Made by a program: the position numbers and the translations under genes | Notes under the pieces: model-generated | Told to the model about the DNA's origin: nothing | What the model saw: only the letters and a program-made list of their open reading frames with translations | Database searches by the model: none | Shown here: in pieces, positions 493-47,720 of the stretch | How the letters are laid out: every line of letters begins with the position of its first letter | Position numbering within the stretch: the first letter of the stretch is position 1 | Assembly (NCBI GenBank): GCA_001972305.1 | Contig: BDDD01001764.1 | Coordinates: 195,626-259,625 of the forward strand | Origin: Cephalotus follicularis | Taxonomy: Eukaryota > Streptophyta > Magnoliopsida > Oxalidales > Cephalotaceae | Direction: 5' to 3' | Length of the DNA: 64,000 nt

Positions 493-1858
493 TGTTCGTT
501 TCGTTGAACTGATTCAAAATTACCCTAATCTAACGATTAGCAAATGGAAAGTAGGGATCGTTCCCACAAAGAGCTATGATGATATAAATAAACTTAACAT
601 GCAACTATACAAAAATAACAAACACTAAATGAAATAAATTGAAAAGAGAATTGATTTGCATTAAACTTTTGCAATGAAAATTTGAACAATTCATATTAAA
701 TATCTAAAGAATTGTAAAAATATAAATATGAAATTAAGATGAGAAAGCAATCCCTTAGATGTGAGAATCCCTACATGTATATATATATATATATATTCAA
801 ATTCATGGAATAAAATCTGGTTTAATGTCACATAAAATAATGATTTAGCCTAGGTACACCCTATCCTGTCAAACCTTGATACTCTCGAAATGATGATTGG
901 TAAAAGGATGTCTGTGGTGCAATCACATAAAAAGATTAAGAATCATAGCATGATGTAAATGAATTAGGGCTACAAGCACTAAAACATCAAAACATATTTT
1001 ATACCATTAAAATTCTTTCTCATCAATGTTCCACATACATTAACAGAAAAAGATTGTCTTACAAACATGCTGTTAAACCAGAAAACAAGAATTGAAATAT
1101 ATATAAAACATGGGTTCATCTACATCCAAGGATTAAGAAACTTAGCCGGTCATGATGATGGTAGGTGCAATAATATTCAAAGAATTGTTCGTCCAACAGC
1201 TGCCTTTTCTTATTTTTGTTTGACGTTCACCAGCATCCCTATAACTGACTTATTGTTTCCTTTTTATACTCTAACCTAATGCAGAAAAACGAAAAAAAAT
1301 CTAACTATTACAATTTGATTAAAACTGTAAAAACTTTCCAATTCTGTTGCCTAATACGTCGAAAGCATCAACGCTTTAGTCCTGGGCGTCGACGCTTTGG
1401 TGTGTTGTGCTGTATGCGCTTCGCGTTACGTTTGGCATTGACTTGAATAATTGAACTACAGTGTTAAGCGTCGACGCTTTCTTTGCAACCGTCATCGCTT
1501 TGAAGGTAGGTGTCAAGGCTATAATGAGAGCGTTGATGCTTCAAGGGTGCACTTTGATTTTTAACTTTCTGTAGTAAAGCTTCGACGCTATGGCCTTAAC
1601 TGTTGGCATTTTCTGGTTAAGTGTCAACTTTTACAGTCAAGGCGTCGACGCTTTGCTCTGTTTCCCATAGAATTTTTGTCAATTCTTCAAATTTTGATCT
1701 CCTAGCTTTCGATTTGCGCCAATTTGACTCATGTTTCTACATTTTGATCTTTTTGGCTTCTTACCCGAATGTCAATCAAACACAACCAAAGAAATATGTT
1801 CCAAGCATAAAAATACAATAATTAACTCATTAAAATGAATACATTTTTATGCTCATCA
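493..1858 (-). repeat. 5' LTR of element D2 (gag-protease family)
   Basis: This LTR (1366 bp, minus orientation) runs from tgttcg at 493 to gctcatca at 1858. Both outer parts align with the LTR of element D (55356-57038): the aaattaccctaatct block, the gatgtgagaatccc block, paired blocks of type ctatcctgtcaaacc-ttgatactctc, and the catttttatgctcatca end. The middle does not align. D2 carries a GTCGAC array at 1367-1654 where D carries an unrelated catgcatgg-rich segment. An (AT)n microsatellite lies at 778-796. Confidence 0.8.
1367..1654. repeat. Degenerate GTCGACGCTTT array, about 21-bp pitch
   Basis: Copies of gtcgacgcttt or close variants start at 1367, 1388, 1470, 1491, 1512, 1532, 1581, 1602, 1623 and 1644. 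A weaker copy is at about 1430. Successive intervals are mostly 20-21 bp or multiples of it. Copies at 1388, 1470 and 1644 are perfect; others have decayed. Confidence 0.75.
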
Positions 1859-2090
1859 GCTCTCAAGTCTGCCTCCAAAGTCTGAGCTCTAACATCTACC
1901 ACCGAGGCCTACCATTGAGCTCTGAGGTCTGACCTCTACCACCTAGGTCTGCCCTCGACGTCTGAGGTTTGATCTCTGCCTCTATGGGTTGCCCTATGAG
2001 GTTTGCCGTTGACCTCCGAGGTCTGCCTCCGCTGCAAGGTTTGATTTTAAGGTCTGACCTTCGCTGCGAGGTCTACCTTCACATTATCCC
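1859..2090. repeat. Degenerate GAGGTCTG array, about 20-bp pitch
   Basis: Variants of gaggtctg start at about 1904, 1924, 1944, 1964, 1984, 1998, 2018, 2036, 2049 and 2068, mostly 20 bp apart. The array lies directly beside the D2 LTR end. It may belong to the copia LTR that follows. No coding potential is seen. Confidence 0.6.
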
Positions 2091-3359
2091 GTCCTTAAGC
2101 TCCCTCAATAAATAAGTATTCATATGTTAAAACAAACAACCCTTCACACAGAACATTCTCCAAGATGTTAATCTCTCACTAAATGACATGTGTCCCACAC
2201 ACGTTAACCTATTCCAAAATCAGGTATGACCCGAAAGCCCAATTTGTTCCCGGTACAATGATAAATTTCCCAGAACATTCCAAAAATCTGGTACGACCAT
2301 CCTAATAGGCCCAGACTATAAAAATATCCCCGGTATGATATCCAATCATTCCCCGGATCCGTGGACGGAAGTTCCACGTCTATCATCTGTTAGTCGGTCA
2401 ACCGGTACTTTATCCTGTCATCAGTTTATGTGTCATGTATCCTTTGTCATTCTTGGCTCCGACCGCAGACTAGAGTTTGGATTAATGTCAACACTAGGTA
2501 GTACCGCGATAACTATAACTCCATGCATGCAATGACACTACCGATAGACCTCCCCAGAAACTACGTTTCTAGTCTTCCTCTTCTTGGCTAGTTTTTTAAG
2601 TCTACAACCGACAAAGATATTATAGAGCCGATCACCTTCAATAAGGGTGTGACGATCCCCTATTCCGCACTCGCCCATACATCTCAATGCAGCTCCCACA
2701 AGGCCCAAAGAAAACCCTTTTACCAGCTCATGGCAGAAACTGGGGAAGGCAGAAATCAAAGCCAAGCAGTTACTACACAATGCATGCCAGCCGCTCGGGT
2801 CTGAGGAAACAATGCAGTTCACGTATGGCCTTCTAGTCACCATTGACTATACACTACCGAGACTATTGAAATCTTAATGACAAGGGTATAGACCATCCAA
2901 AATAGGTTTCATATGGTGGGTCTGTTCAGTGTTCATGCTATCATAGCATGCACCCCGTATTATCTTTAGCGTAAACACAAATGGCAATGAGTGAATCCAT
3001 CCTCCACTGACACCCGGGAGCAAGCATAATACGACAAGTCTATCCGGTTCATCAATTTCCCTAAGAAAGTGAACCTATAACTGGAAACATTTTTTCAGAA
3101 GGGAGTAAGGATCTCATTCTCATAACCTCTCCAGCACGAGATCCAACCCTTTATCGAAAGGGCACTATATGTGTATACGGATAATGTCTTAATTAATCTG
3201 ATTTAATAGTTATGGTTTGGGATATACATATAGTAAATTCCACTATTAAATGTAATTTTCAAAATAAAACATGAAGGTAACTATGAATGTATAAATCAAG
3301 AGTGTATATATAGAAGCATGTAGCCACCTTGTGGCATGCAGGGACACTCCTACCTAACA
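2091..3359 (-). repeat. Copia-1-family LTR in inverted orientation
   Basis: The segment is an inverted, diverged copy of the copia-1 3' LTR. The block around 3040-3080 (ccggttcatcaatttcccta) is the reverse complement of 8785-8830. The block at about 2450-2560 matches the complement of 9290-9395, and 3290-3355 matches the complement of 5140-5200. On the minus strand it begins TGTTAGGTAGG at 3359. The other end is not resolved, so whether it is a solo LTR or part of a rearranged element is open. No gene is present. Confidence 0.6.
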
Positions 3360-9396: not shown

Positions 9397-10300
9397 TGTA
9401 ATATTCTGTTTCTATGTTGACATGTTTATATGTTTGTTGATGATATCATATCCTTTTTTATTTATGCCATGGTATGCGGACCTCTTTGGTTTTTGGTTTG
9501 AATTTCTTTTGTTTTCTGGGCAAAAAGCGCCGACGCTGTATTTAGAATCGCTGACGCTTTGGCTGCTGGGTGGCACGTCGACGCCTAAACGTGTGACTTC
9601 GACGCGTTTTGTATTTAAGTGCTTAACCGTCGACGCTTTGTTCGGCTTTCCATATCAGTTTGGACGGTGACAATGTTTTTGGAAGGTTGGATTCTTTCCT
9701 TTTTTTTGGCTATCTGATTTCCTTTAGTGTAAGACGCGTTTTGGTTAGTATGGTAATGTTCTAAAACACTGATCTTGACAATTAAAATGTGGATTTGTAC
9801 ATTAATCAGACAAAATTCTTTTAAAAACATAAACCCTTTTCTGCATATTTCTACAAACGAACAACAGCTTTGAACACGTTTTTCTACACCGATTTCGACG
9901 TTTTTTGGAGGTAATTTCTAAACGAAAGTTGTAGTTTACATTATGTAGTTTCTGTATCATCGTTTAATTCGTGTTAAAACCAACTATAACATGATCTAGA
10001 GTATGATTTTGGAATCTTGTTGAAATTAAATTCGGCTGTTGTTTTTATATGTTCATTCATGGGTTGTATACATAACTAGTAATGTTGATACTTAAAAACA
10101 AAGAAATCATACTATTGATGAAGGTAGATATATGTGTAAGTCACTGGTTTTAGGATTTTAAAAAGAGAAATCTGAAATTTTGTTATGGTTGCATAAACAA
10201 TTTATATGGAAGAAAATTAGGTTTCAAAATGGATTTTACTCTCTGTACGAAATCATAAGGTTATTCTGGCGTTTTTGAAGTAATATAACATGTCACTGAA
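9397..10300 (+). repeat. Element B 5' LTR, first segment
   Basis: The start resembles the A LTR start (tgtaatattctg against tgtaataccctg). It carries gtcgacgcttt-type sites at 9529, 9550, 9577, 9598 and 9629 (intervals 21, 27, 21, 31). It is interrupted after 10300 by element A. No gene. Confidence 0.75.
9529..9639. repeat. GTCGACGCTTT array in B LTR, left part
   Basis: There are five sites: gccgacgctgt, gctgacgcttt, gtcgacgccta, ttcgacgcgtt and gtcgacgcttt. Intervals are 21, 27, 21 and 31 bp. Confidence 0.75.
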
Positions 10301-10311
10301 TGTAATACCCT

Positions 10312-10415
10312 GTTCGTTCGTAAATTTATTTTACGGATTTTGTATGTTTGTTCGTAAATATATTTTACGGATTTTGTATGTTCGTTCGTAAATATATTTT
10401 TACGGATTTTATATG
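10312..10415. repeat. Three tandem 34-35-bp units at the A LTR start
   Basis: Units of type ttcgttcgtaaatatatttt followed by acggattttgtatg start at 10312, 10347 and 10381. They begin 11 bp after the LTR start. The matching part of the 3' LTR is deleted. Confidence 0.85.
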
Positions 10416-10959
10416 TGTTTTCGGGCTTTTAATTTTGTTTAATTTTAAAGTCCGTTTGCCCTATGATCGGCTTTATGTGAATTGTGCGGTACGATATCGG
10501 TCTGATATTTGGGTATGTTATACTATGTTGGATTTTATAAATTCTTAGTTTAATCCAAAATTATTTTATTAAAAACAAATTATTATTCTTTTATTTTAAT
10601 ATTCCTTATTTTTCCTTTTCATTATTTATTCATTTTGTTATTATTTCTTTTTCTTTTCTTTGTCCTATTTTATCATTTTCTACCATTTTCACCTACTTCC
10701 TTCCACCACCCTTCTTCTTTCCAGCAGATTTCTCCTTCCCACCATCTGAAAAGCCATGTTAGAATATCTCCTTTTCATTACATAATCCAGAAAACTCTCA
10801 TTCCATTTCCCTTTGTCAAATCTTGTCTCCCCCTTTCTTCATATTTGAATGCCATTGCCATTTTTATATGATGCCACCATCCCTATTGCAAACAAATCCG
10901 AATCTGCCTTGTTATTGTGCAAAAATCTGCTGTGTAATTCATTATCCAAAGTTCAGAAG

Positions 10960-11068
10960 GTAATCTCAATCCTTTAATTGTTTCCTTGCATTAAATTCTC
11001 AAAATTTGCTAAGTATGTCAAAAAAATACCATGGTTTTGTATTCTTCTTTCTTTGTTTCTGTTCACAG
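10960..11068 (+). other. Putative short intron in the A LTR
   Basis: A donor-like CAGAAG|GTAATC is followed 109 bp later by a pyrimidine-rich acceptor (ctttgtttctgttcacag). The length fits a small plant intron. A second donor-like AAAG|GTCAGT lies at 11132. The same sites occur in the 3' LTR at about 18723-18831. This is inference from splice-site shape only. Confidence 0.3.
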
Positions 11069-11521
11069 CTGAATTGGGTATTGTACTTGTGTTCTTCCTA
11101 CTGTTTTCTGGGTTCTATAACATCATTAAAGGTCAGTAAATTAATTCCCTTCAATTATAGTTTTGTTTCAATGGCTTACTTTGAGTTTTTGTGTTCTTGG
11201 AGTCTTGAGTCTTTGATTCTTGTCTAAACATGTTGCTAATGTGTTAGTGATGTTATCTGCACGTTTTATGCACCTATATATGTCACAAACTAAGTTTATA
11301 ACATCTGTATTTAACAAAACACAAAAATCGGACATGTTCATGCAATGTCCTCTTGCTTCCTTTTTCAAGTAAAATCTATACCAAGGTTGTTTCTTTGTCA
11401 AATTTGTGTTTATAAGTCACCTAAAAGTCATATATAGTCATATGTTTATGTCCATATGTCTCTAGTTTATTGTAGAAATCATTTGAACCAATTTCAGTAG
11501 CAAATCGTCGGATTTCCAAAT

Positions 11522-11810
11522 TGAATAAACTACAAGGGGGGGGGGTGAATTGTAGTTACTAAAAATTCTAAGCTTATTTGCAATGAATAAAAACAATAAG
11601 CAAACACAATATGAACACAATGTAAAGAGATAGAGTTTAGAGATGTGCAAACACTAGTTTTTAGAGTGGTTCGGCCAAACTCTTGCCTACGTCCACTTTT
11701 CCCAAGGATCTCCTTTATGTTTAGCTTTTGTCTTTCTTGCACAAAAAGAAACTTTGTTAAATACAAATATGTTATCATCAAAACATAGGATTGAGACATA
11801 AATGTCAACA
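11522..11810 (-). repeat. 3' LTR of N1
   Basis: The LTR is 289 bp; its minus-strand start TGTTGACATTTATGTCTC is repeated at 13027. It contains a G run at 11536-11545 on the plus strand. Confidence 0.85.
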
Positions 11811-11826
11811 ATCTCCCCCTTTTTGA
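11811..11826 (-). promoter_or_regulatory. Polypurine tract of N1
   Basis: On the minus strand CAAAAAGGGGGAGAT directly precedes the LTR start, the normal plus-strand priming position. Similar g-rich tracts recur at about 11935, 11952 and 12050 in the internal region. Confidence 0.75.
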
Positions 11827-12307
11827 TGATGACAAAATTTGTTACAATTAAAGCATAAATTTGTTAAGTTTATAATCATTAACAAAGAAAAACATGTGAA
11901 GTAGGAAATGATACCAATTGAAAGCATAATAACTCCCCCTGAGTTTAATGTCTCCCCCTTAGTCATAGAAGGCTTTTTCTTTGAAACTTAGAACAAAATG
12001 CACATATTAACCATTCTTTTTTAAACTATAAACAAGAACAAGTGCACTCTCCCCCTTTTTGTTATCATCTTAAAAGGGAATTTGGAACTTATTCAATATT
12101 TCAACCTACAATACAAGCATTTTAAACCATAGACATTACATGAAGCTGTAATTGAGTACACCAAAGCATTAAAAATATAACCTTCATTTCATCAAAACAT
12201 AGTCATTATACAAACATTTGAGCTGTCAAAATACAAGCATTAAAGACTAAAAATGCAGAAATGCAAGAGACAGAAAATGCAGAACACAAAAGGCATGATG
12301 CACATGC

Positions 12308-12935
12308 TCAATCCTCCATAGCATCCGTGGCTGCATCCGTGGCTGTATCATCCGGTGGATCATCATCGCGGCTGGATGATGAGGATATCAGTCCATCAAA
12401 CACAACAAGACCTGCGTCAGCGGTCCTCCTAAAAAATCTCCTTTGACGCCTCCTCATGCTCTCAATGTCTTTATGCATACTCTTGATAACATCAAACATC
12501 TCATCCATCCTATGACTTGGAGGATGCTCTTCTGGAATCTGTTGAGGTGGTGGTTCGATATGTAATGGTGCATTCTCTGCTTCCTCACCCGCCTCAGCTT
12601 CTCCCTCTTCTTGCTCAATTCGGTTCGAATCCTCATCCCTTGTAATCCAAGCACCTGTCCTCTTGTGCTTTTTGAACCCCATCCTTGCGAGAGTTCCTTT
12701 TCCCAGCTTATCCGAGCTTTGGAGGTTATTGTGCACCTCACCCGAGAAGTCCACACCAAAGCATTCAAGAATCCTAGTAATGATGTTGCTATAGCCTAGC
12801 CTCGCATTCTCTCGGTCGTGTATAGAGTGCATATACATCACAATGAGATAGAGAACATTGATGGGTCGGCGAGTGACAAAGTGGTATAAAGTGAAGGCTT
12901 CCATGTGGGTTACCTCATCGAACCCACCGGCCTTT
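12308..12935 (-). CDS. Partial plant-transposon-protein-like ORF of N1
   Basis: An open minus-strand frame enters from the truncated LTR at about 12935 (FDEVTHMEAF...) and ends at 12308; 198 codons follow the first Met at 12904. The N-terminal third (HFVTRRPINVLYLIVMYM, YSNIITRILECFGVDF) resembles the family annotated as putative plant transposon protein, often found in non-autonomous LTR elements. A charged linker rich in Glu and Pro follows, then a basic RRRQRRFFRRT patch and an acidic Ser/Asp tail. No RT, integrase or protease is present. The role is unknown. Loss of the 5' end means no native start is left. The family call is from memory of the motif and is moderately sure. Confidence 0.6.
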
Positions 12936-13027
12936 GTTTAGCTTTTGTCTTTCTTGCACAAAAAGAAACTTTGTTAAATACAAATATGTTATCATCAAAA
13001 CATAGGATTGAGACATAAATGTCAACA
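12936..13027 (-). repeat. Truncated 5' LTR of N1
   Basis: About 92 bp are identical or nearly so to 11718-11810. The homology stops at tttagctttt, where coding sequence begins abruptly. A deletion therefore joined the LTR start to the ORF. Confidence 0.85.
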
Positions 13028-13048
13028 CAAATGTTCTGTCGCCAAAAA

Positions 13049-13212
13049 CAGCCGACTGTCTGAGTGAACAGTCGACTGGAATGGTTGGGTAGTCGACTGG
13101 ATTGAAGAACACAGTCGACTACATGCATTTTTGGGTTGCGTAGTCGACTGTCACATGATCCAGTCGACTTCCCAGCGTCTCCAGTCGACTGGATCCCTGT
13201 TCAAGGCGACTG
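13049..13212. repeat. CAGTCGACTG array in the A 5' LTR
   Basis: Eight copies of the 10-bp palindrome or one-to-two-base variants start at 13049, 13069, 13090, 13112, 13141, 13161, 13182 and 13203. Intervals are 20, 21, 22, 29, 20, 21 and 21 bp. The spacers differ from each other. Confidence 0.9.
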
Positions 13213-14616
13213 GTATGCCCTGCAATGTGCTGTTTTCACCCGTTTTGATTCGTTTGACCCCCGAATCGATCCGAATCTTTTCCAAACATTTTTGTGAGTC
13301 TGTTTAATGCTTCCAATGTGTTTTAAAATCTTATACATATTATTTTTAATGTCTTTATAGATTTTTGAATTTCATGTGGATTCCGTTTAAAATTGTCTAT
13401 TAGTAAGTACTTTGCAAGCGCATAAGGTACGGATTTTATGTTCCTTGGCTATCTGACCTTCAAACTGGAACTGTTTTGATAAACATCTTCGTTTATGAAA
13501 TCAACGATGTTTTATGATCTTGATATGTTTCAAATTTAAGTTGGTTTGACATTTTATTGATTCCAACTTTATCTATACAATATGTTATGGTACGAAATGT
13601 TAAGATACGATATGTTATGATATGTTATGTTATACTACTGTTGTGAATAGTTTTTTTTTGAATATGTTGTGTGAAAAATATTTTATGTGTTTTAATTTGA
13701 TTTTGATAAATCAATTATTTTAATTTAAATACTGAGTATTGTACCCACCTATGGGGCGTATCCATAGGCACGTCGTGGGACTGGCACGGGGACGTGACAC
13801 TTCCGTAGTAGTGTGATTTGACTACGGCGTCTCTGAGTGTATGAACGAATCCCATGAGGTGGATTTGTGGATCCGCTATGTGATAGAGGCGTATGAATCG
13901 ATTCTAGTTTATGTGATCTGAGGTGAATTCAGATATATGGTCCGATGTGTGATCGGATATATGTATGTGAGAATTGACTTGTGTAGTGCTGTACACCTCA
14001 ATTCTAGTGGGCATGTGGAATTAGCGCCTCCCTTGCAAAAAGATATGATATGTGATATGAATATGGCTCAGTATGTTTTACGAACTGCAATTTATAGCGT
14101 TTTGAATTGTTTCGTAATTGTTTCAAAAAATGTGCAATTGCCATTTGATTATGATTAAACTTTTTTATTTGTTAAAGATTTTTGTTATGTTATTATTGAA
14201 ATATTAACGTTTTAAAATTACCATTTACTGTTTTATTTCCCTTATCCGTACTGAGGTTTGCTCAGCCGCGTTTTGTTTTTCCATGCGGCAGGTTTTCAGG
14301 AGCAGCGGGGGAAAGTGTGATTGAGTGATGACTACCCTTTATGTTGGATCCTTAGGAGAGTGATCCCTATGTTATGTTTAGTGGTCTGAAACATTTGATA
14401 TTATGTTTTATGTTTTTAAATTGGAACTTTATTATGTTTTGAATTTTCCGTAACTACTTAATATGTTAAATGTCTAGTTTTAATGTTTTGATAAGACTGC
14501 CACGTTTTCTGGCTGTTATTGGTTAATAAAGCAAATTTTATGAGTTTTTTTTAAGTTATGATATGTATGATATGACCTTGTGACGACTCCCGCCGTCCGG
14601 GGGTGTTACAGAATTA

Positions 14617-14628
14617 TGGTATTAGAGA
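14617..14628 (+). promoter_or_regulatory. Primer-binding site of A (tRNA-Met type)
   Basis: tggtattagaga, six bases after the LTR end, matches the plant initiator-Met site TGGTATCAGAGC at 9 of 12 positions. Confidence 0.75.
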
Positions 14629-14789
14629 TATAGGTTTTGTTTCCTTAGAAGACCTAACTAGGTTTGACCTGTGAGATTGGGTAGACACCGGGTTAGGCTG
14701 TTTCGATTATGATTTTCTGATATGTTTTTTGTTTTCTGCTTTATGTTTTGTTCCTTGTGATGTTTTATGTTTAAAGCGCCTTTTTGTAG

Positions 14790-16415
14790 ATGGCACGTAC
14801 AAGGAACGCTGCTCGGAGGACTGCACCTGTTGAGGCTCAGGAAGTCAGAAATGAGCCTACCATGGAGGAGCTCGTATGACAGGCAGTCGCTCAGGAGATA
14901 CGACGCGCGTTGAATGAACAGAATCAGAATCAGGACCGTAGGGAGCCAGTTGCTGCTAATGATTCTCCTGCTGATGTCCAGTTGGGAAGAGATGCTGGGA
15001 ATGGGACTGTTACACCCACTTATGTTTGGCTTGAGCGGTTCCAGAAGCATAGACCATTGTCTTTCAGCTCAGCCGTAACTCCGGTGGAAGCTGAGCACTG
15101 GATTGCTAATATGGACAAGATCTTTGATGTCCTAGGTTGCAGTGATGAACTGAAGATTAAGCTAGCTGTATACAAGCTCGAGGGTGATGCTCAGAAATGG
15201 TGGAAAGTTGTCGTTTTGGCTAAGGGTGGCAACTATGCGGAGACTTTGACCTGGTCTGAATTTTGTGAGGTCTTTTATCAGCAGTACTTTCCCACCGCTA
15301 ATAAGGAGGCTTACGCCAGAGACTTTGTCAATACCCGACAGAAGGATGGAGAGTCAGTGACAGAGTTCTTGAGCCGATTCACTAGACTTGCTGGTTTTGC
15401 TGGGTCCGCTGCAGGAACAGCATTGGAGCAAGCAGAAAAGTTCAAGTGGAAGTTGCACTACCAGTTCCGGGGTAAATTGATCAACACCAGGTTTGCTGAT
15501 GTATCTGAAGTGGCTAATGCGGCAAAGAATATTGAGCTGGAAAGGTTAGATTTCCAGGCTGCTCGACAGGAGTTTGACAGAAAGAGGAACATAGGTGATT
15601 CTCAGGGGCAAGGTTCTGGATAGAATAAGAACATATATGGTAAGCGTGGGAAGAGAAATGATTACCGGGGACAGCAACATCTCGGTAATGACCAGAGGCA
15701 GACTCAGGGAGCTGCGGATGTTAAGATTGCAAAGTGTGATGTGTGTGGTAGACAGCATCCAGTGGGAGTATGCTACAAGGCTATCGGGGCCTGTTTTGTG
15801 TGTGGACAAAAAGGGCACTTCGTGAAGGATTTTCCTGACCCTCGTGCAAAGGAAAGGAAGGGGATCAATGCAGATCATGGACAGCGCAACGTGGGAGGTC
15901 GTGTCTTTGCTATCACGACTCAGCAGGCAGCTAACGCACCAGGTACTATTTCGTGCTTTGTTTATGTTGGTAATCGTAAGGCTTATGTTTTGTATGATAC
16001 TGGATCGACCCACTCGGTTGTAGCGAGGTCTTTTGTTCGGCATCTTGGGATGTCTTCCCAATTGCTTGATCCAGATTTGGTTCTTTCGACCCATACGGGT
16101 TCTTCTGTTGTGATATCTGAGTGCTTTTATGCTTGTCCTATTGTTTTCGATGATCGGGTTCGTGATGCGGATCTTTTGCCTATCGATATGTTCGACTTCG
16201 ATATGATTTTGGGAATGAACTGGTTGGATCGACATCGGGCTACGATCGACTGCTATGCTCGGAGGGTTTTGTTTGGGGATGTGAATAGTCCTGAGTTTGT
16301 TTTTCAGGGTTCACAGCCTAGGAAAGAAGTAAAAGTGATTTCTGCTTTGAAAGCTCGGAAGTTGGTAGCTAAGGGCGCTGAAGGTTTCTTAGCTGTTGTG
16401 AAGGATGTCTCAAAG
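14790..16415 (+). pseudogene. Element A gag and protease
   Basis: The frame starts at the ATG at 14790 (MARTRNAARRTAPVEAQEVR). The gag capsid part is at 14910-15623: ERFQKHRPLSFS, WIANMDKIFDVL, KWWKVV, FYQQYFP, EFLSRFTRLA. A zinc knuckle lies at about 15792-15833, CFVCGQKGHFVKDFP, with the final Cys replaced by Phe. The aspartic protease follows, with YDTGSTHSVV (catalytic DTG at 15996-16004) and ILGMNWL. In-frame stops are TGA at 14877 and TAG at 15621. A one-base loss near 16415 breaks the link to RT. It would encode the capsid and the polyprotein-processing enzyme but is not functional. Confidence 0.88.
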
Positions 16416-17814: not shown

Positions 17815-18715
17815 TTGATAGCTGATATGGAGCAGATGGATTTGCATCTGTATGTTCGGGGTTTTGAAGGTTGTATTGCTGCGATGAATGTTGAATCTAC
17901 TCTTATATATCGGATTAAGACAGCTCAGAGTGACGATGGTGAGCTTTGGGCCTTAGTCCAGAATGTTGAAAAGGATAAGCAATCAGATTTCCGTATGGAT
18001 GAGCATGGTGTGATATGGCTGGGTAATCGGTTGTGTGTTCCGTAAGATTCTTCTATCAGAGATGCTGTTTTGTCAGAGGCACACAGTTCTCCATTTTCTA
18101 TACATCCGGGTTCTACGAAAATTTATAGGGACTCGAAGAAGAATTTCTGGTGGAATGGAATGAAAAAGGATGTGGCGGAGTACGTTGGGAAGTGTTTCAT
18201 CTGTCAGCAGGTAAAGATTGAACACCAGCGTGCTAGTGGTTTCTTACAACCGTTGGAACTTCCGGTATGGAAATGGGAAAGTATATCGATGGACTTTGTT
18301 ACGGGTTTTCCGAGAACTTTCAGAAGGCATGATGCTATCTGGGTAGTAGTGGATCGATTGACGAAATCGGCTCACTTCTTGGCTATCCTAGAAGACTTTT
18401 CTGTTGATCGTTTGGCTGAGGTGTTTTAGCAGGAGATTGTGAGACTGCATGGGACTCCGGTATCCATTGTTTCGGATAGGGATCCTCGTTTCACATCGCG
18501 GTTTTGGAAAGGGTTTCAGAAAGCTTGGGGTACTAGGCTTGGCTACAGTACAACTTTTCATCCACAGATAGATGGGCAGACTGAGAGGACCATCCAGACC
18601 TTAGAGGATATGTTGAGGTCTTGTGCTTTGTAGTGGACTGGGAGCTGGGATGAGTATTTGAGCTTGGTAGAGTTTGCCTACAATAACAGTTGGCATGCTA
18701 GTATCGGTATGGCTC
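17815..18715 (+). pseudogene. Element A integrase, C-terminally truncated
   Basis: It is in one frame with RT, with stops at 17812, 18043, 18427 and 18631. Visible are the HHCC region (SEAHSSPFSIHPGSTKIY, CFICQQVK) and the DDE core ([33 protein letters not shown]). The frame stops at IGMAL, where LTR sequence begins at 18716. The GPY/F part and chromodomain, which direct chromovirus integration, are gone. Confidence 0.88.
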
Positions 18716-35227: not shown

Positions 35228-35265
<38 letters not shown>

Positions 35266-35286
35266 AATAGAAAAGAAAAGAAAAGG

Positions 35287-37140: not shown

Positions 37141-38307
37141 TGTCACACCCCGTTATTCCAAATACATTAGACAACATATATGGTGATATCAGGAATAAAT
37201 ATAATCCAGCATTTCCAATAACAATCCAAAATAACATAAGTGGAAGCAATTAAAACTGAATTACAAGTCATCCGCACGCAGCCCATACTACGTGAAGGCA
37301 TAAACCAACAATTATCCTTACATAAGGAATGTACAACAGAGTACGGGATATGATCTGTCATTTCAAAATACAGTACAACATTAAAAAAATAACAACCTTA
37401 AGTCAAAAATAGAAGCTCTCCATACTTCAGCCGCAATCCTCAAGTCTTATCTTAATCTGTAATTGTAGGGGTTAGCCGTTGTCCTCACTTGGCTAAGTAA
37501 GAAGATAATGCATGCTAAGGAATATATGGATGCAACATGTATGACAGTTTATATTTAAAAGATCATTTTAGTATGCCAATACATAAGCAATCATGCCAAG
37601 TGGCCATAGACAATACAATGCAAGAATACCGCACAAGGGTATAATCAATTCATCCTGGTTTGGGTGTCACATGTCGCTACCTCCTAGCTCCGACTACGCA
37701 CCACCTATCCATCACTCTACACTCCGAGATGATAGATAAGGTAACATTCACTACCAGCGTTGGTGAGTAGTTTAACAATAAGATCTGCAATGCAGATATG
37801 TTTGGGTGGATACTCTGGCCAACTCCTGGCACCCAGGATCACCTCCGTAGTCAGTGACATCCTCCATCACTCGACTAACGGCAATAACAAAGACAATCAA
37901 TTCAATCAATTCAGTTCAATAATAATATCACATATATGTATAATATGCAATATAAAAGTTGTTTTGTTTAGAAACATTAACAATTCATTTATCGTACATC
38001 TCTTAGGAGGAAAATGATATCAATTCAATAGCAGTTTCCAGTTTGGGAAACAAAATAGTAGGTACCTCACATAGGAGAAAAATCAGTTGTCCTTTTAGCA
38101 ATAATCTTTCATTCGAAAATGATAATTATTATCATGAATAGTGCATATAGCACTTAGTAGTTCAATCTTTAGAAATATGGAAACAGTAGGTTTATAACAA
38201 TCACTGGTATATGCTAATTAACAGTAGAATATCCAGAAACCATAGCAAGACAGTAGCAATTAAAATTAAAGTCTGAACAGGACATATATCAGAACTTTAG
38301 CCCAGGA

Positions 38308-38421
38308 CAGTCGGCTGTTCTAAAGCACATTCGGCTGTTTTAATTGAGCAGTCGACTGTTTTGTCTTAACAGTCGACTGGATGGGGATGGGTAGTCGACT
38401 GTCATGTAGAACAGTCGACTG
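38308..38421. repeat. CAGTCGACTG array 1 in the F 3' LTR
   Basis: Six sites start at 38308, 38328, 38349, 38370, 38392 and 38412, with intervals 20, 21, 21, 22 and 20 bp. Two sites read tcggctg. The array is missing from the 5' LTR because of its deletion. Confidence 0.9.
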
Positions 38422-39497
38422 CTTCTGGCCAGAAATGCAGGTAGTAGCAGGTTAGTATATTCTAATGTCTAATACAATTCAATCAGTGCATGAAATCAAG
38501 CAGAAAATAAACATACATGACATGCATACTCATATCTTCCAAAATATGTCATTACCCCTACCTCAATTGGTATCCCAAGATCAATTGTAATTGATCTTTC
38601 TCTTTGAGTTTCCAAGCCTCATTCTCCACCAACCAATCCTTCCAAATCCAGCAGAATTAATCTATGCAATGCATGTTTTGGAGATTCAGTCACTTAATCA
38701 GTAGGTTAACTAGTTATCCAGTTGCAATTACTACTTCAATAGTAGTTAATCAAGAGTTCATTAAGTCCCCCTTTTCATTATCAATAACTTTTCTCCATTA
38801 TTCACTTCTACTTCTAGTAACTACCATGCTTGCATGTTACAGAAGGTGTATACATGTTTAGTCATCATACACATACTTAGAGACAACTGTAAAAACAACC
38901 CTAATCAGATCATAGGTTTATCAACAATTCTCTAAGCTCATGTCCATGTTCTTACTCCCTTACATTATCATTCCAATTCAATTCTAGAAGTTGTTAACCT
39001 TAAACCATGTTAATAGAAGACATCTAACCCTCCTAGTTACATCACTAACAGTTACTACATCAGCAGGAAGCTCGAATTTGGAAGTTACCAGGAGGAATCC
39101 AAAGCTTCCAAGTCCCCTTTTGCACTCTAAGCCTTCAACATGCATTCACTTGCCAACAATTCTCCAGCAATTCTTCTCTTCCATGGTGTTTTTCTAACAC
39201 ACAGTAAGCTCATGGACAGCTGATATAAAGGCTTAGGAACCTTTGAATTCACCAGATTACCTTACTCAGTTTTCTCTCATTCCTTCTCTCTCTCACACGC
39301 ATTCCTCTTTCTCACCATTCTCTCTTTCCATTTCAGTTTGCAGGTCTGCAGAGAACAGGCAAGCACTCCTTTTGGCATGTTCTAGCAGCTGGTGACTTCG
39401 CCTAACACCTGTCCTTCATGCAATGCCTTTTGATTTCATCACACAGGCATGCACAGACACCTGTTCTGTACTGATCCAGTTCACTGTCTTCAACAGG

Positions 39498-39555
39498 CAG
39501 TCGACTTTCACAACACGCATCAGACAGTCGACTGTTCCCCTGTGACTGTCGGCTG
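39498..39555. repeat. CAGTCGACTG array 2 in the F 3' LTR
   Basis: Sites at 39498, 39525 and 39546, intervals 27 and 21 bp. Confidence 0.8.
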
Positions 39556-39697
39556 TCGATGGCTGTTTTTGGTAATTTTAGGTTCATTTGCTCAATTAAA
39601 CCAAACAAACAGTATAACAATTGGACATTAAAATTAAATAAATGCACATTTTATTCATCAATATTAATGTACACGAATTGAATTTGCGGTTATTACA

Positions 39698-39711
39698 TTC
39701 CCCCCTCCTTC
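39698..39711 (-). promoter_or_regulatory. Polypurine tract of F
   Basis: On the minus strand GAAGGAGGGGGGAA lies directly before the LTR start TGTAATAACC. Confidence 0.85.
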
Positions 39712-39742
39712 AAAAAATTCATCCTCGAATTTAGCCTTTACA

Positions 39743-41220
39743 TTACATTCCGAACAAGTGGGGAAATGTCTCCCTCATTTCTTTCTCACGCTTCCACGTA
39801 GCTTCCTCCGCTCCGTGAAATGGCCACAACACTTTTACCATAGGAATGGTCTTGTTCCTTAGAACCTTTTCCATTCGATCCACTATCCTTGCCGGCCTTT
39901 CCTCATATGTCAATCTAGGACTAATGAATCCAGGATCGTAGCTCAAAATGTGAGATGGGTCATGTACGTATTTCCATAACATTGAAACATGAAATACGTT
40001 ATGCACGTCTGAAAAACTAGGCGGTAGAGCAATCTGATATACTACCTCACCCACTCTATCTAGTATCTCGTAAGGTCCAATATACCTTGGAGCCAACTTC
40101 CCTTGGAGGCCAAAACGGTGTATCCCTTTCAAAGGCGAGATCTTCAAGAAAACACGATCCCCCTCCTCGAATTCTAGCTTCCTTCTCTTGCTATCGGCGT
40201 AACTCTTCTGCCAACTTTGTGCAGCTAGCAGTCTCTTCTTAATCATCTCCACTTTATCAGTGGTCTCCTGTACCAGGTATGGTCCCAGCACTTGTCTCTC
40301 ACCTACCTCGTCCCAGCAAATAGGTGATCTGCACTTTCTCCCTTACAAAGCTTCATATGGAGCCATTCCAATGCTGGTGTGAAAACTGTTGTTGTAGGAG
40401 AACTCAATCAGTTCCAGATGATCCTCCCAACTCCCAGCAAAATCAATCATGCAAGCCCGTAGTATATCCTCTAGAGTCTGAATAGTACGCTCGGACTGTC
40501 CGTCAGTCTGGGGGTGGAATGCAGTCCTAAAGTTCAAGGTTGTTCCCATAGCTGTTTGGAACTTCTTCCAGAACCTTGAAGTAAATCTAGCATCTCGATC
40601 ACAAACGATACTGACCGGCACCACATGCGGTCTCACTATCTCCCGGATATACAATCGAGCAAGCTTCTCGATAGAATACGTCAAGTTCATCGGAAGGAAG
40701 TGAGCAGACTTAGTGAGTCTGTCCACCACCACCCACACTGCTTCATGCTGATTTCGTGACCTCGGCAATCCTGACACGAAGTCCATGGTCACATGCTCCC
40801 ATTTCCATTCAACCACTAGTAACGATTGTAGCAGTCCCGCAGGTTTCTGATGTTCAGCCTTCACTCTCTGGCAGGTCAAAAATCTTGCTACATATTTAGC
40901 AATCTCCGGTTTCATACCACTCCACCAGTGGTTCTATTTCAGATCGTGCCACATCTTGGAACTTCCAGGGTGAACACTGTATCTTGACTTGTGAGCTTGT
41001 TGTAGTAGCTCATTGTTGATGCTCTCGTCACCCGAAACACATATCCTCCTTCGGAACATCAATATGCCACTGGTATGAATGGAGAACTCAGAATCAGTGT
41101 CTAAGTTCTCCACAATTTAGAATCACTGTACTGAGCAGTCAGAATACGCTCCAGAAGTTCCGGTTGTGCTCTCAAACTTGCCACTATAACTCCACGGGAA
41201 ACCATGAACGGATTCCATCT
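39743..41220 (-). pseudogene. Element F integrase with chromodomain-like tail
   Basis: The zinc region (41220-40916) is decayed. The core at 40915-40343 has TMDFVSGLPRSRNQ, DRDARFTSRF and [14 protein letters not shown], so the D, D and E positions are present. A stop after IGMAPYEAL separates it from 40291-39743, which has RYIGPYEILDRVGEVVYQI and VFHVSMLWKYVHDP. The tail NKTIPMVKVLWPFHGAEEAT ends with the EMRETFPHLF block of Tekay-like chromoviruses. It would insert the cDNA and guide it to chromatin, but the frame is broken. Confidence 0.88.
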
Positions 41221-41880
41221 CTAAAATTCCTCCAATAGCTTCCACTGTGAAACCATTGCTCCAGCAATCATTGACTTGCGACTCAGCGCATCAGCCACTA
41301 CATTCGCCTTTCCCGAGTGGTATTGAATATTGCAGTTGTAGTCATTAAAGAATTCCACCCATCGCCTTGGTCTCATGTTGAGCTCCTTCTGGGAAAACAA
41401 ATACTTCAAACTTTTATGGTCAGTAAAGATCTCAAACTGAGCACCATAGAGATAGTGCCTCCATTTCTGCAAAGCAAACACTATGGCTGCCAACTCAAGA
41501 TCATGTACGGGATAATTTTACTCGTATGGATCCAACTTCCTTGATGCGTATGCAATCACTCTACCATGTTGCATAAGAACGCATCCCAATCCCTTCCCAG
41601 AAGCATCAGTATGAACAGTGAAACCCTCATTACCGTCCGGTAAGGCCAACACTTGAGCCGAAATAAATCGACTCTTCAACTCTTGGAAACTTGCCTCACA
41701 AGAATCATCCCATACAAAACTGGACTTCTTCTGAGTTAGCTGTGTCAACGATGTTGTGTGTTTCGAAAACCCTTTGATGAATCTTCGGTAATAGCCAGCC
41801 AATCCCAAGAAACTACGGACCTCTGTAACATTCCTTGGTTGGGTTCGAAGGATCCACTGACAATCCTTAACTTGACCCAA
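41221..41880 (-). pseudogene. Element F RT end and RNase H
   Basis: Frame 41880-41518 carries [40 protein letters not shown] and [13 protein letters not shown], then a stop. Frame 41493-41221 carries [20 protein letters not shown] and [10 protein letters not shown], then [16 protein letters not shown]. One frameshift separates it from the RT frame and one stop divides it. Confidence 0.88.
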
Positions 41881-43285
41881 TGTGACCTAGGAAAGTCAAA
41901 TGATCTAGCCAAAAATCGCACTTGCTGAATTTGGCGTATAGCTGTTCCTTCCGTAGTGTCTGCAATACAATCTTCAAGTGCTGCATGTGTTCATCAATGC
42001 TCTTTGAATAGATCAGGATGTCATCTAAGAATATAACAATAAACTGATCAAGATAGGGTCGGAACACTCTGTTCATCAAACACATAAAGGCTGCAGGAGC
42101 ATTCGTCAAACAAAACTGCAGTATCAGAAATTCATAATGCCCATATCTGGTTCGAAATGCGGTCTTCTCCACATCACCTTCTCTGATCCTCAACTGATGA
42201 TAACCCGTTCTTAGGACAAGTTTGGAGAATACAGTTGAGCCTTGCAATTGGTCGAACAATTCCTCAATATGTGGCAGAGGATGCTTATTCTTCACAGTCA
42301 GTTGATTTAGCAACTTGTAGTTGATGCATAGCCACATCGATCCATCCTTCTTTTTCACAAACAGAACCGGTGCACCCCACGGTGATACACTCGGTGTGAT
42401 AAAGCCTTTATCAAGGTAATCCTGTAATTGAACCTTCAACTCCTTCAGTTCGGCATGAGCCATATGGTACGGTACTCTGGATATAGGAGCAGTTCCAGGC
42501 AATAGCTCAATACTGAACTCTATATCCCTCTCTGATGGCAACGAAGTGAGATCATCTGAAAACACATCAGGAAATTCACATACAACAGGCACTTGTTCAA
42601 TACTGAGCGTACCTTTCATATGATCAATCACATACGCCAAATAGCCCTCGCATCCTCGCTTCAGATACTTCTGTGCTCGAGTATATAAAATGATCGGAGC
42701 AGTAGCATTCTTCTCCCTGATAAACTTGCTCTCAGTCCCATCATGAAGGTAAAATGTCATCATCTTGTTGTAGCAATCCACACAAGCATGATGAGCATAC
42801 AACCAGTCCATCCCCAAGATTACATCGAAATCCTGGATAGGTAGCACTATCAGGTCAGCAGATAATTGTATCCCAGCCACCATGATCTCACAGTCTTTCA
42901 TAACAGTATCAGATAGAAGACAAGTACCCGCAGGAGTACTCACTTCCAATACATACGGTAGTCTAGAAGTAATACCATGCAAATTGTGAGCAAATTCAGA
43001 TGCAATGAATGAATGCATTGCACCAGGGTCAATCAATACATGAGCTAGTATGCCAGATATGTAAATAGTACCTCTTACAACAGTAGTAGATTCTGGCACA
43101 TCATCTTTAAACAATGTGTAGACCCTATCTTTCACAATCCCTTTTCCAGTGTCTTTTCGCGGTTGAGCAGCCGCAACATTACCACTAGCACCAGCACTTC
43201 CTTGTTGGTCGCGTGCTTGATCCCTCATCATCGGGCAATTATTCATCATGTGATCCTGTGAACCACACCTCAAGAACTTTCCCAT
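41867..43285 (-). CDS. Element F zinc-finger, protease and RT ORF (472 aa)
   Basis: An open frame on the minus strand. A knuckle-like [11 protein letters not shown] lies near aa 8. The protease region reads [17 protein letters not shown]; the usual active-site triplet D-S/T-G has Pro in the middle, so activity is doubtful. DVILGMDWL follows. [48 protein letters not shown] (normally KIDL), FLDDILIYS. It ends by frameshift at FLGHIGSS. Several substitutions in normally fixed RT residues mark it as decaying despite the open frame. Confidence 0.85.
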
Positions 43286-44298
43286 TTTCTTCCAGCATTC
43301 GGTCTCATCATGGTTCGGGCGACCACAAAAGGTACATCCACCTGCATTCTGTTGACTGTTTCGGCTAGGAGTCCTTGATCGTGAGTTATTGTGTTGAGAA
43401 ACTCCTTGCCCTCGGTTACCAGACTTTGCCGATTTAGCAGGATGTTACTTTCTTGCCCCTGTGACTGTGCGGTCCTTGATTGATTAGCACGAGCCCGTTC
43501 TGACCTCCTTTCATTGGCATCATCTTCAAGAATCATCGCCCTCTCAGCAACTTCAACAAAAGAGGTCAGCTGCAACATCAAAAGTTTAGACCTGATGTCA
43601 GGTCGAAGGCCTTTTAGAAACCTTCGGATCATCCGTGATTCACCCTCTACCAGATAAGGTGTATGTCTTGCTAGCTCCACAAATCTGGTCTGGTACTGAG
43701 CTACCGTCATGTCTCCTTGACATAACTCCATCAATTCTGTCTCCCATCGGTCACGCTCTATCTGTGGCATATAAGCCTCAAGGAACTCGGACTGAAATCT
43801 GTCCTAAGTCCGGTCAAGTCCACGGGCCTCCCATTTTGCTTCAGTCCTTTCCCACCAGTAAGTAGCCTCACCCCATAAATGGTACATAGTAAAATTGAGT
43901 TTCTGCTCATCGGTACACTCCAAAGTAGCAAATATTTTCTCCAGGTCTCTAATCCACTGCTCGGCCACAGTAGCATTCAGTTCACCATTGAAAGTCAGAG
44001 GATTCTGTCTCATGAAGCGCTCCAGATCTCGGCCAAATCCACCGCCATGGCAAGCTTCAGGAGAATGATGATAGGTCCGGTTCGCCTCATACATTTGCCG
44101 AATCTGTTCCATGTTCGCCGCATTAGCTTGCATCTGCTGTTGAAAGAGATCAGCCATGCGGTCAAAGTGACTCCTCTCATCATCCACTGGGGGAATATTC
44201 ACTCCTTCATTCACTGCCGGGTCAATTCCAGGTACCGGCGGTGCGTTCACACCTTCATCAGCTCTACGCCTTCCTCTTCTACCTCTTCGTAGATCCAT
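43270..44298 (-). pseudogene. Element F gag
   Basis: Starts at 44298 (MDLRRGRRGRRRADEGVNAP). Capsid motifs: NPLTFNGELNATVAEQWIRD, EKIFATLECTD, GEATYWWERTEA. It has an in-frame stop at 43804 (Trp position) and continues FQSEFLEAYMPQIERDRWET, VAQYQTRFVELARHTPYL, RRFLKGLRPDI. Near 43450-43300 the frame shifts before the first zinc knuckle ([14 protein letters not shown] in another frame). A polycistronic gag-pol is expected for the family. Confidence 0.87.
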
Positions 44299-44387
44299 TC
44301 AGTTTCCTATATGGAATGACATAATCATTAGGAAACAATCCACTTAAATTTCCGAGAAACTTATCCCAGCTAGCATATATGGAATAT

Positions 44388-44399
44388 GCTCCGATACCA
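44388..44399 (-). promoter_or_regulatory. Primer-binding site of F (tRNA-Met type)
   Basis: On the minus strand TGGTATCGGAGC lies three bases after the 5' LTR end. It matches the initiator-Met site at 11 of 12 positions. Confidence 0.88.
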
Positions 44400-44402
44400 T
44401 GC

Positions 44403-45687
44403 TGCCACACCCCGTTATTCCAAATACATTAGACAACATATATGGTGATATCAGGAATAAATATAATCCAGCATTTCCAATAACAATCCAAAATAACATA
44501 AATACTCATATCTTCCAAAATATGTCATTACCCCTACCTCAATTGGTATCCCAAGATCAATTGTAATTGATCTTTCTCTTTGAGTTTCCAAGCCTCTTTC
44601 TCCACCAACCAATCCTTCCAAATCAAGCAGAATAAATCTATGCAATGCATGTTTGCGAGATTCAGTCACTTAATCAGTAGGTTAACTAGTTATCCAGTTG
44701 CAATTACTACTTCAATAGTAGTTAATCAAGAGTTCATTAAGTCCCTCTTTCCATTATCACTAACTTTTCTCCATTATTCACTTCTACTTCTAGTAACTAC
44801 CATGCTTGCATGTTACAGAAGGTGTATACATGTTTAGTCAGCATACACATACTTAGAGACAACTATAAAAACAACCTTAATCAGATCATAGGTTTATCAA
44901 CAATTCTCTAAGCTCATGTCCATGTTCTTACTCCCTTACATTACCATTTTAATTCAATTCTACAAGTTGTTAACCTTAAACCATGTTAACAGAAGACATC
45001 TAACCCTCCTAGTTACATCACTAACAGTTACTAAATCAACAGGAAGCTCGAATTTGGAACTTACCAGGAGGAATCCAAAGCTTCCAAGTCCCCTTTTGCA
45101 CTCTAAGCCTTCAACATGCATTCAGTTGCCAACAATTCTCCAGCAATTGTCCTGTTCCTTAGTGTTTTTCTAACACACAGTCAGCTCATGGACAGCTGAT
45201 ATAAAGGCTTAGGAACCTTTGAATTCGCCAGATTACCTTACTCAGTTTTCTCTCATTCCTTCTCTCTCTCACATGCATTCCTATTTCTCACCATTCTCTC
45301 TTTCCATTTCTGTTTGCAGGTTGCAGGTCTGCAGAGAAAATGCAAGCACTCTTTTTTGCATGTTCTTACAGCTGGTGACTTCGCCTAACACCTGACCTTC
45401 ATGCAATGCCTTTTGAATCAACCACACAGGCATGCACAGACAGCTGTTCTGTACCGATCCAGTGGACTCTCTTCAACAGGCAGTCGACTGTCACACCATG
45501 CATCAGGCAGTCGACTGTTACCCTGTGACAGTCGGCTGTCGTAGGCTGTTTTTGGTAATTTTAGGTTCATTTGCTCAATTAAACCAACAACCACAAACAG
45601 TATAACAATTGGTCATTAAATTCAAATAAGTACACATTTTATTCATCAATATTACAATGTACACGAATTGAATTTGCGGTTATTACA
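44403..45687 (-). repeat. 5' LTR of F with internal deletion (1285 bp)
   Basis: Matches 37141-37238 and then jumps to about 38526, so about 1.28 kb is missing near 44500. The missing part includes GTCGAC array 1. The remaining array (45460-45538) is kept. Confidence 0.9.
45460..45538. repeat. CAGTCGACTG array in the F 5' LTR
   Basis: Sites at 45460, 45481, 45508 and 45529, intervals 21, 27 and 21 bp. This is the counterpart of 39498-39555, with one further site kept. Confidence 0.85.
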
Positions 45688-45692
45688 AAAAG

Positions 45693-45945: not shown

Positions 45946-46261
45946 TGTAAGGTCCCAAATTTTATAAATAATTATTTTAATATTGGTACAGTGTATGACT
46001 GTATTGAACCGATGGAGCCCGAATTAATAAAAGGCATCGCGTATTAGAGCCGCAAATCGTAAGGCCCGAAATGATTAATAAAGCCCATTTTTAATGCGCG
46101 ACAATAAGCCCCTATGTTCACATTTTTATTGCGACAATTTTGGCACCCGTTCGGATAATTAATATTGCCGTTTGCGGATTAAACGGGACCCAGGCCTTAG
46201 TATTTTAGCCAGTAACTACCAAGAAGGGAAGCAAAAGTTGAGGAAAGGACAAGAAATGACA

Positions 46262-46318
46262 CACGGGCGCATAAGGCGCCCGTGCAAAGGAAAGTGACCA
46301 GGCGTTAAAACGCCTGGT
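46262..46318. other. Two adjacent GC-rich hairpins in S2
   Basis: The first (46262-46284) has 9-bp arms CACGGGCGC/GCGCCCGTG and a 5-nt loop. The second (46297-46318) has 10-bp arms ACCAGGCGTT/AACGCCTGGT around AA. The second corresponds to 35287-35308 with compensating base changes. Confidence 0.75.
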
Positions 46319-47514
46319 CTGTGAATGAAAGGGGGAGACATAGAGGGCATCGGGAGAGAACGGGAGAGAGATGGCGCCGGAGAAGAAATGGTGTCGGGCG
46401 AAGCTTGACGGCCGGAAGCGTGCTCCACCCACGATAACCTCCCCTTTCTCTTCTTCCTTTTCTCTTTCTTTCTTCTGCCCGACGTCATCATGTCACGCCG
46501 CTGCCGTGTGTTCCACCGCCGGTTAGCATCGCGGGTGGGTCCAGTCTTCACCTAGGAGGCCGGCTACACCCATTTCAGTGGCTGGTTTGGCGTCAATCAG
46601 CCAGAAACGGCCGGATTTAAACTGACGGGTCGACTCAGCGAGTTGACCCGCTGCCGCCTTGGACGGTGCGTTTAGCGCCGAGTCTCGGTGAGTTAAGGCT
46701 TGTGGTGTGTTTGTATGGTGGTTGTGATGCGTTTTATGGCGTTGGCCGGAGCTGAGGACGACCGGTGAGTCAACTCAGTGAGTTGAACTCACTGGCCGGC
46801 CGTGACACAGCGAGTCACGGCGAGTCACGGCGAGTCTGTGGCAGCGACGCGTAGAACTGATGGTTGTGAGGCGATTTTGGGTTGTGACCGAGGCTGCGGT
46901 TGACCGGCGAGTTGAATCAGTGAGTTGACTCACTGTCGGCAGTGACAGCGCGTTTCGCGACGAGTCACGATGAGCCTCCGATGGTTTTGAACATATCGCC
47001 CAATGTGGAACCTGTTTTTGGGTTTCGCCGGAGCTAAATGAATTGACCGAAAACTGGCCAAAGCTCTGATAAGGGCTGTTCTTGGTTTTCGTGCGTAGAT
47101 CGTAACGGAAATGTGTTGTGCATGCAGGATACGAATATGATCAAGGATAAGCAAAACGATCAAGGATTGAGGATTTTCGAGCTTTACGAGCTCAGTTGCT
47201 AAGAGGTAGGTTATACTATTGCTTGCATTGCATTCATGCATTTTAAATAATTATATGAACTGATGTGTACGAATTGTACTTGCATGGATGCATGATTGCA
47301 TATACATATATATATATATATACAAGTATACGGATGGATATGCATATTGCATATGACATATGATATAAGGATTGATATTTAATTAAGAGGAGATGAGTTC
47401 TTGCCTTCTCTTAATTCATGGGCTATGGGATGAATTTTAAAAGGCTTTGAACTGTTTCGGGCATAGTTCCATGATTTAAGAAAATTTTCACAAACTACAT
47501 TTTCTATCAAAACC

Positions 47515-47720
47515 GTCGACGCTTTATGCTTTCAAAACTAAACCTGTCGACGCTTTTATGTGTTAAACTTACAGTCGACGCTTTTATGTGTTAAACTTAC
47601 TGTCGACTCTTTTATGAGTTAAACCAAACAGTCAACGCCTTATGCTTTAAAACAAACCGTTGACACTTATACTTGTGCTTTTTAAAACTGTTGACGCCCG
47701 GGGCTAAGCATCGACGCTTA
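47515..47720. repeat. GTCGACGCTTTT array in S2, about 29-bp pitch
   Basis: Sites start at 47515, 47546, 47574, 47602, 47631, 47659, 47690 and 47710, with intervals 31, 28, 28, 29, 28, 31 and 20 bp. Units contain atgtgttaaacttaca between sites. Later copies are more degenerate. Confidence 0.88.

Follow-up and report, generated by a model that had tools for sequence, protein, structure and literature searches.

The U3 (unique 3′) part of the long terminal repeat (LTR) promoter of the tobacco retrotransposon Tnt1 carries BII boxes bound by defence-induced factors, and its subfamilies differ in regulation (PMC3316501). C-repeat/dehydration-responsive element (CRT/DRE) sites are already known in plant LTRs, from Rider, a machine-learning survey and stress-activated transposable elements of maize; they have been reported in U3 (PMC6762207, PMC11656987), and DREB1D sites are associated with plant LTRs (PMC11656987). 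ONSEN (HSFA2 and a heat element) and EVADE (WRKY factors and W-boxes) are further LTR retrotransposons that recruit a host stress factor (PMC12786077), while VANDAL DNA transposons bear dense noncoding arrays of VANC target motifs that vary between relatives (PMC5735166). Here we describe phased arrays of the palindrome GTCGAC in the LTRs of several Ty3-type retrotransposon families in 64,000 nucleotides of the Cephalotus follicularis genome (GCA_001972305.1, contig BDDD01001764.1, positions 195,626–259,625), hereafter the window.

These arrays resemble the Tnt1 boxes in being U3 motifs that differ between related elements; however, Tnt1 is one tobacco Copia family, whereas here several Ty3-type families carry phased palindromes with mostly dissimilar spacers, in hundreds of thousands of pairs. 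The GCCGAC variant of the arrays is the CRT core, but the DRE/CBF reports, as excerpted, concern sites and not phased palindromic arrays, and here GTCGAC predominates with symmetric flanks. ONSEN and EVADE use other motifs, and in the present case the host factor is only a candidate. In VANDAL elements, which are DNA transposons, the element's own protein binds tandem repeats in direct orientation, whereas the window arrays are palindromic sites in retroelement LTRs. Among titles and the beginnings of abstracts we found no description of phased palindromic arrays common to several lineages, and although CAGTCGACTG, the unit of one array type, occurs in four papers, none of these concerns retrotransposons by its title.

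GTCGAC arrays in the window and the genome

The window contains 36 GTCGAC sites against a mean of 5.2 in shuffled sequence, and none of 100 shuffles reaches 36. Mapped LTRs, among which those of family E are not counted, occupy 31% of the window and hold 33 of the 36, the other three lying at 28000, 59336 and 63050. Successive exact sites no more than 60 bp apart are separated by 52, 21, 22, 29, 20, 21, 21, 22, 29, 20, 21, 21, 21, 22, 20, 27, 27, 31, 28 and 28 bp. The scan of all 6-mers covered the window, two trimmed loci of contig C1 and 20 arbitrary 10-kb stretches (∼15.5 kb of them N). GTCGAC gave 30 pairs with dissimilar flanks at 20–22 bp versus one at 15–18 or 24–26 bp; words overlapping GTCGAC aside, its sole rival was poly-T (32 pairs), which is non-periodic, with 44 pairs at the control distances.

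The excess extends to the whole assembly of the window (1.577 Gb in 9,746 contigs), where the initial annotation had proposed a motif scan. GTCGAC pairs 15–45 bp apart number 262,153, against 4,308 for the reversed pattern, and those 45–75 bp apart 179,883 against 3,907. Because the reversed pattern lacks CpG, we added CTCGAG, which is likewise palindromic, matches GTCGAC in composition and contains a CpG; this forms 1,956 pairs at 15–45 bp (its own reversed control, GAGCTC, 18,335). The annotation's claim that GTCGAC recurs as arrays is thus borne out by the count in the window, by the location in LTRs and by the genome-wide excess of pairs. The units come in dialects that differ in their flanking letters. 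CAGTCGACTG (dialect 1) followed by GTCGAC after 8–14 bp occurs 66,796 times in the forward search of the genome (222 for the reversed pattern), and pairs of GTCGACGCTTT (dialect 2) 4,420 times (control, 16).

Genome-wide spacing was judged on the ∼100 places listed for each search, from the first contigs. Among the first 100 listed GTCGAC pairs, 55 had dissimilar spacers, and these fall at 19–22 bp (36 pairs), 23 bp (one), 27–32 bp (nine) and 40–45 bp (nine), with none at 15–18, 24–26 or 33–39 bp. For dialect 2, 39 of the listed matches had dissimilar spacers: 28 at 19–22 bp, or 29 at 19–23 bp with 19 of them exactly 21, and the rest at 25 (three), 28 (one), 31–32 (five) and 34 bp (one). By visual comparison of words common to the spacers, the 27–28-bp spacings in dialect 1 appear to go back to a single inherited stretch.

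The elements and arrays of the window are as follows.
1358..1654, minus strand: D array, dialect 2, at about 211–502 of the D 5′ LTR (455–1859).
9397..22489, plus strand: H 5′ LTR in two pieces (9397–10300 and 20868–22489), split by element A.
9529..9634, plus strand: H array i, dialect 2, at LTR positions 133–238.
20968..21092, plus strand: H array ii, dialect 2.
10301..20862, plus strand: element A, with its 5′ LTR at 10301–11521 and 13028–14611 around an insertion at 11522–13027.
13051..13210, plus strand: A 5′ LTR array, dialect 1, six exact sites with GCCGAC and GGCGAC units.
19303..19462, plus strand: A 3′ LTR array, six exact sites matching the 5′ copy.
37144..45687, minus strand: element F, sitting in the LTR of G, with its 3′ LTR at 37144–39697 (2,554 bp).
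38310..38419, minus strand: F array ii, dialect 1, in the left (3′) LTR.
39500..39560, minus strand: F array i, dialect 1, in the left LTR; right-LTR copy at 45483–45536.
47515..47715, plus strand: S2 array, dialect 2, 28–31-bp tandem copies, in a solo LTR (45946–49751).
55356..57038, minus strand: G 5′ LTR, a relative of D without any GTCGAC, carrying instead a CATGCA cluster in U3 (56305–56689).

Element A is flanked by the target duplication CTGAA within the H 5′ LTR; its 3′ LTR starts at 18716, its 5′ part missing, and ends at 20862. The F 5′ LTR (∼44403–45687) lacks ∼1.27 kb, and the F LTR carries two arrays. S2 has TG..CA ends and the target duplication TATAT, inside a TA run; unlike the units of the other arrays, the 28-bp ones of S2 are genuine tandem copies. 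The exact sites of the D array, at 1388, 1470 and 1644, are 82 and 174 bp apart with decayed units in between, so that the period of about 21 bp given for it holds if decayed units are counted and fails for exact sites.

In D, H, A and F the arrays lie within U3, 70–150 bp upstream of putative TATA boxes, which were called by sequence only: TATAAAA near 1268, ∼90 bp downstream of the D array in element orientation; TATATAG near 21163, 71 bp past the last site of H array ii; and boxes at 146 bp in A and ∼114 bp past array ii in F. The S2 LTR has no clear TATA box. With 33 of 36 sites in LTRs and these TATA-like boxes downstream, the arrays have the position of U3 enhancers, within the LTR and upstream of the core promoter.

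Two other repeats were seen in the window. A 987-bp unit stands in three tandem copies, ∼94–95% identical, at 30535–33528, and family E forms head-to-tail repeats with a ∼3.75 kb unit (57039–64000 and 35254–36460), at a unit boundary of which G is inserted with the target duplication AGGGA.

Lineages, dialects and U3 blocks

A, H and F are Ty3-type elements with RVP_2, RVT_1, RNase H and SH3_Tf2-1 domains, H being placed by its similarity to A; Pfam finds Retrotrans_gag in A and SH3_Tf2-1 in F. Their reverse transcriptases are identical in amino acids at 85% (A–H), 63% (H–F) and 60% (A–F). Judging by their LTR ends and integrase tail, we presume that they are chromoviruses of Tekay type, a label that stays presumptive because no Pfam chromodomain match was obtained. 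D and G form a gag-protease group (G protease against Pfam Asp_protease_2, E = 0.011), which we take to be Athila-like from protease motifs. The arrays had been assigned to different lineages, which stands for two groups, A/H/F and D/G, although the names Tekay and Athila remain our assumption.

They had also been counted in at least five LTR families, and as independent cases there are fewer, because the array called B (9529–9634) belongs to H, the sister of A, and because the arrays of A and F are similarly placed in the LTR. B is not a separate family: it and the array at 20968–21092, which the initial annotation did not list, are two arrays of one LTR. Two-array LTRs are found in H, F and the assembly stretches L018, L022, L025 and L014, with array i ∼130–300 and array ii ∼1000–1390 bp from the LTR start. 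Both arrays share one dialect in all six, although these include two related pairs, F with L014 and L018 with L022.

Array type does not track descent, since the sisters A and H have different dialects. Alignment of their LTRs, at 75%, begins at A1485/H1132 and continues to the ends; in H it starts no more than 3 bp from the last site. The sole other aligned segment lies off the diagonal, with a score of 79 where shuffles reach at most 75. In the LTRs of D and G the first 98 bp align (76%) and alignment resumes from D534/G734 on (82%), with nothing between; the unaligned block holds the array in D and no array in G. Since A and H, like D and G, share the downstream LTR and differ in the array, we conclude that U3 blocks have been replaced.

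In place of the GTCGAC units of D, the corresponding part of the G LTR and that of its relative L015 hold RY-like clusters: eight CATGCA/TGCATG in 384 bp of the G U3 and 15 in 470 bp of L015 (L015:1861–2330), where the background is 1.34 per kb and 20 D-family stretches have 0–2 each. Shuffles of the G U3 (639 bp) reach at least eight with p ∼0.0015. No alignment joins the two clusters, though the ends of both LTRs do align (86%). RY elements are bound by B3-domain factors. The cluster of G fits the idea of U3 modules as homotypic arrays that would serve different host factors. Elsewhere, at 6651–7100, the window has its highest density of the motif (11 CATGCA/TGCATG in 450 bp).

Within families the dialect is stable. 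Dialect 2 is present in 17 of 20 H-family stretches, the other three having no homologous U3; dialect 1 in all nine of the 14 A-family stretches in which U3 is present; and at least one exact GTCGAC in 18 of 20 D-family stretches, with one having decayed units only and one being non-homologous. This stability concerns close relatives only, because the stretches were drawn from 40 scored among 5,856 (H), 6,169 (A) and 2,188 (D) first-look candidates. The five A-family stretches without the array suggested a U3 swap within the family; this was rejected, as the fixed offset used had placed four of them on another part of the A LTR and one on the internal region.

Both dialects first described are located as stated, in A and F and in D, H and S2, but there are at least three. 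The third consists of AAAGAC-RTCGAY-GTCTTT units, mostly 20–22 and 47–50 bp apart, at L016:5353–5900 and L027:6162–6260. In addition, homologous GAGTCGACTC units 13 bp apart stand at L017:7063–7082, L022:3732–3751 and window position 46629, which may represent one more type of palindrome with a spacing of its own.

In the D family (L049–L068) several units read GTCAAC at the same place across many copies, a recurrence which indicates inheritance rather than recent decay. WRKY W-boxes (TTGACY) were rejected as an explanation, since the recurrent GTCAAC units examined read TTGACG on the opposite strand.

Site specificity and the proposed reader

The arrays are probably, in our judgement, homotypic enhancer modules in the LTR U3, read by a host factor for G(T/C)CGAC. 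Under this explanation a host DNA-binding protein would read a near-palindrome with this core and occupy several sites 20–22 bp apart, which, as this is about two helical turns, would lie roughly on one face of the DNA. The bound array would drive transcription from the TATA box 70–150 bp downstream, and the module would be gained, lost or replaced as a block among related elements, its dialect changing along with it. Convergent selection for one host factor, suggested earlier, stays the best reading: the sites, their spacing, their U3 position, the block replacement between sisters and the enrichment of GCCGAC at array positions are observed, and from them we infer binding, activation and the kind of factor.

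GCCGAC/GTCGGC is 23-fold denser within 75 bp of an exact site (42 in 10.8 kb) than beyond 300 bp (37 in 222 kb), as compared with 5.5-fold for GGCGAC, 4.7 for ATCGAC, 4.6 for GTTGAC/GTCAAC and 0.5–1.9 for the remaining single mutants. It keeps the spacing, with 24 units at 19–23 bp from a site and none at 14–18 or 24–26 bp. In dialect 1 genome-wide, CAGCCGACTG stands beside GTCGAC 24,605 + 24,758 = 49,363 times (controls 82 and 68) and CAGTTGACTG, the CpG-decay form, 2,946 + 3,130 = 6,076 times (controls 7 and 6), so that GCCGAC replaces GTCGAC eight times as often as the decay form does. CpG deamination should favour CAGTTGACTG, yet CAGCCGACTG is commoner, and C at position 2 therefore looks tolerated.

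The CRT/DRE site is asymmetric and read by one AP2 domain. The arrays show the core R(C/T)CGAC with GCCGAC accepted, and their tolerance matches the barley CBF element (G/a)(C/t)CGAC, as cited in the excerpt of PMC3602543; HvCBF1 prefers GCCGAC (PMC4196112, likewise an excerpt). A CBF/DREB-type AP2/ERF protein is the leading candidate for the factor, one that we put forward tentatively.

Several observations weigh against this explanation or against its candidate. GCCGAC could be the older form, CHG deamination yielding GTCGAC. GTCGAC is itself palindromic, and even around the asymmetric GCCGAC (42 units) the flanks are symmetric (before it C 0.76 and, at −1, A 0.90; after it T at +6 0.88 and G 0.79), which looks odd for a monomeric AP2 domain. 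Rider, with a CBF site in U3, showed no response to cold in the excerpt of PMC6762207.

Conservation is modest. Between homologous LTRs an exact site persists in 11 of the 22 cases, or in 22 of 37 if both directions are counted, versus 119 of 298 for other CG hexamers counted likewise. Two pairs that each join the LTRs of a single element (8/8) are excluded; by pair this is 3/4 for F/L011, 3/6 for F/L014, 1/4 for L011/L014, 4/5 for L018/L022 and 0/3 for L025/L016. Within families core identity is only 0.04–0.05 above the rest of the array span, with circular-shift ranks of 31/220 (A), 29/473 (D) and 41/185 (H); this count leaves out L070, L074, L075, L078 and L081 (A), L049, L053 and L067 (D), and L032, L039, L042, L043, L044 and L048 (H).

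The arrays gave no clear sign of helical phasing beyond 21 bp. Pooling 18 arrays (129 sites, one two-site array excluded) gives a peak at 10.3 bp (power 3.38; highest null value, 2.17), which largely restates the 21-bp spacing. When only gaps of 25–75 bp are taken, R at 10.4 bp is 0.29 (n = 40). No 10.4-bp peak is left by strict de-duplication, which kept 42 of 174 strings and gave best periods of 7.0 and 8.5, and spacings of 25, 28 and 49 bp are also present.

Competing explanations

The nearest alternative keeps a host reader and changes its kind: another homodimeric factor, not AP2/ERF, acting as activator or repressor, may read the whole palindrome, the three dialects corresponding to its versions. 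All three are extended palindromes, and both arrays of each of the six two-array LTRs (two pairs of which are relatives) share a dialect. The symmetric flanks at GCCGAC are easier to reconcile with a dimer than with one AP2 domain; even so, the G(T/C)CGAC tolerance fits the known CBF element, and we regard this alternative as possible but doubtful. We would be equally hesitant about its wider form, in which one host regulator, probably a dimer not previously linked with this palindrome, is the common promoter currency of independent Ty3-type lineages, the arrays being gained, lost and retuned by U3 block replacement and the three dialects matching divergent versions of the factor.

Descent would have the arrays survive from an ancestral LTR while the remainder diverged. 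The two-array layout at similar positions in H, F, L018, L022, L025 and L014, the alignment of the arrays of F, L011 and L014, and the constancy of dialect within the A, H and D families are consistent with it. So is a comparison of the spacers of 22 arrays (462 comparisons, sites masked, both orientations, 100 shuffles each), in which 30 exceed all their own shuffles where ∼5 are expected. The strongest matches join F/L011/L014, L018/L020 and L001/L018:251–700, the last two being taken as relatives, and the others are weak (z up to 5.5). But A/H and D/G differ exactly at the array block while the flanking LTR aligns at 75–82%, and the D group is not close kin of A, H and F; we regard descent likewise as possible but doubtful.

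Exchange of a cassette, proposed in the initial annotation, survives as replacement of U3 blocks between sisters, with a breakpoint no more than 3 bp from the last site of H. Movement of array blocks from one family to another through template switching or recombination is unlikely: no clear common spacer cassette appeared in the 462 masked comparisons, which led us to reject intact exchange, and of the pairings within A, H, F, S2 and D, D–S2 alone exceeds its shuffles, weakly and in opposite orientation. A donor was seen for neither replaced block.

Neutral tandem duplication, as in minisatellite growth, fits S2 and parts of L018:265–699 and L016:5348–5682, whose units are homologous tandem copies, but most listed pairs have identical sites with dissimilar spacers and no such homology, making it very improbable for the arrays at large. 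Six-base palindromes resemble retroviral dimer initiation loops, yet a role in the element's RNA, for instance as a dimerisation loop, is scarcely credible for arrays that lie upstream of putative TATA boxes and commonly contain GCCGAC, which is not self-complementary.

If the arrays are indeed enhancer modules for a host factor, one genome holds several hundred thousand phased pairs of binding sites, at least partly spread by retrotransposons, which would form a ready-made pool of enhancers and possibly a sink for one regulator. The replacement of U3 blocks would then offer different elements a way to converge on one host factor.

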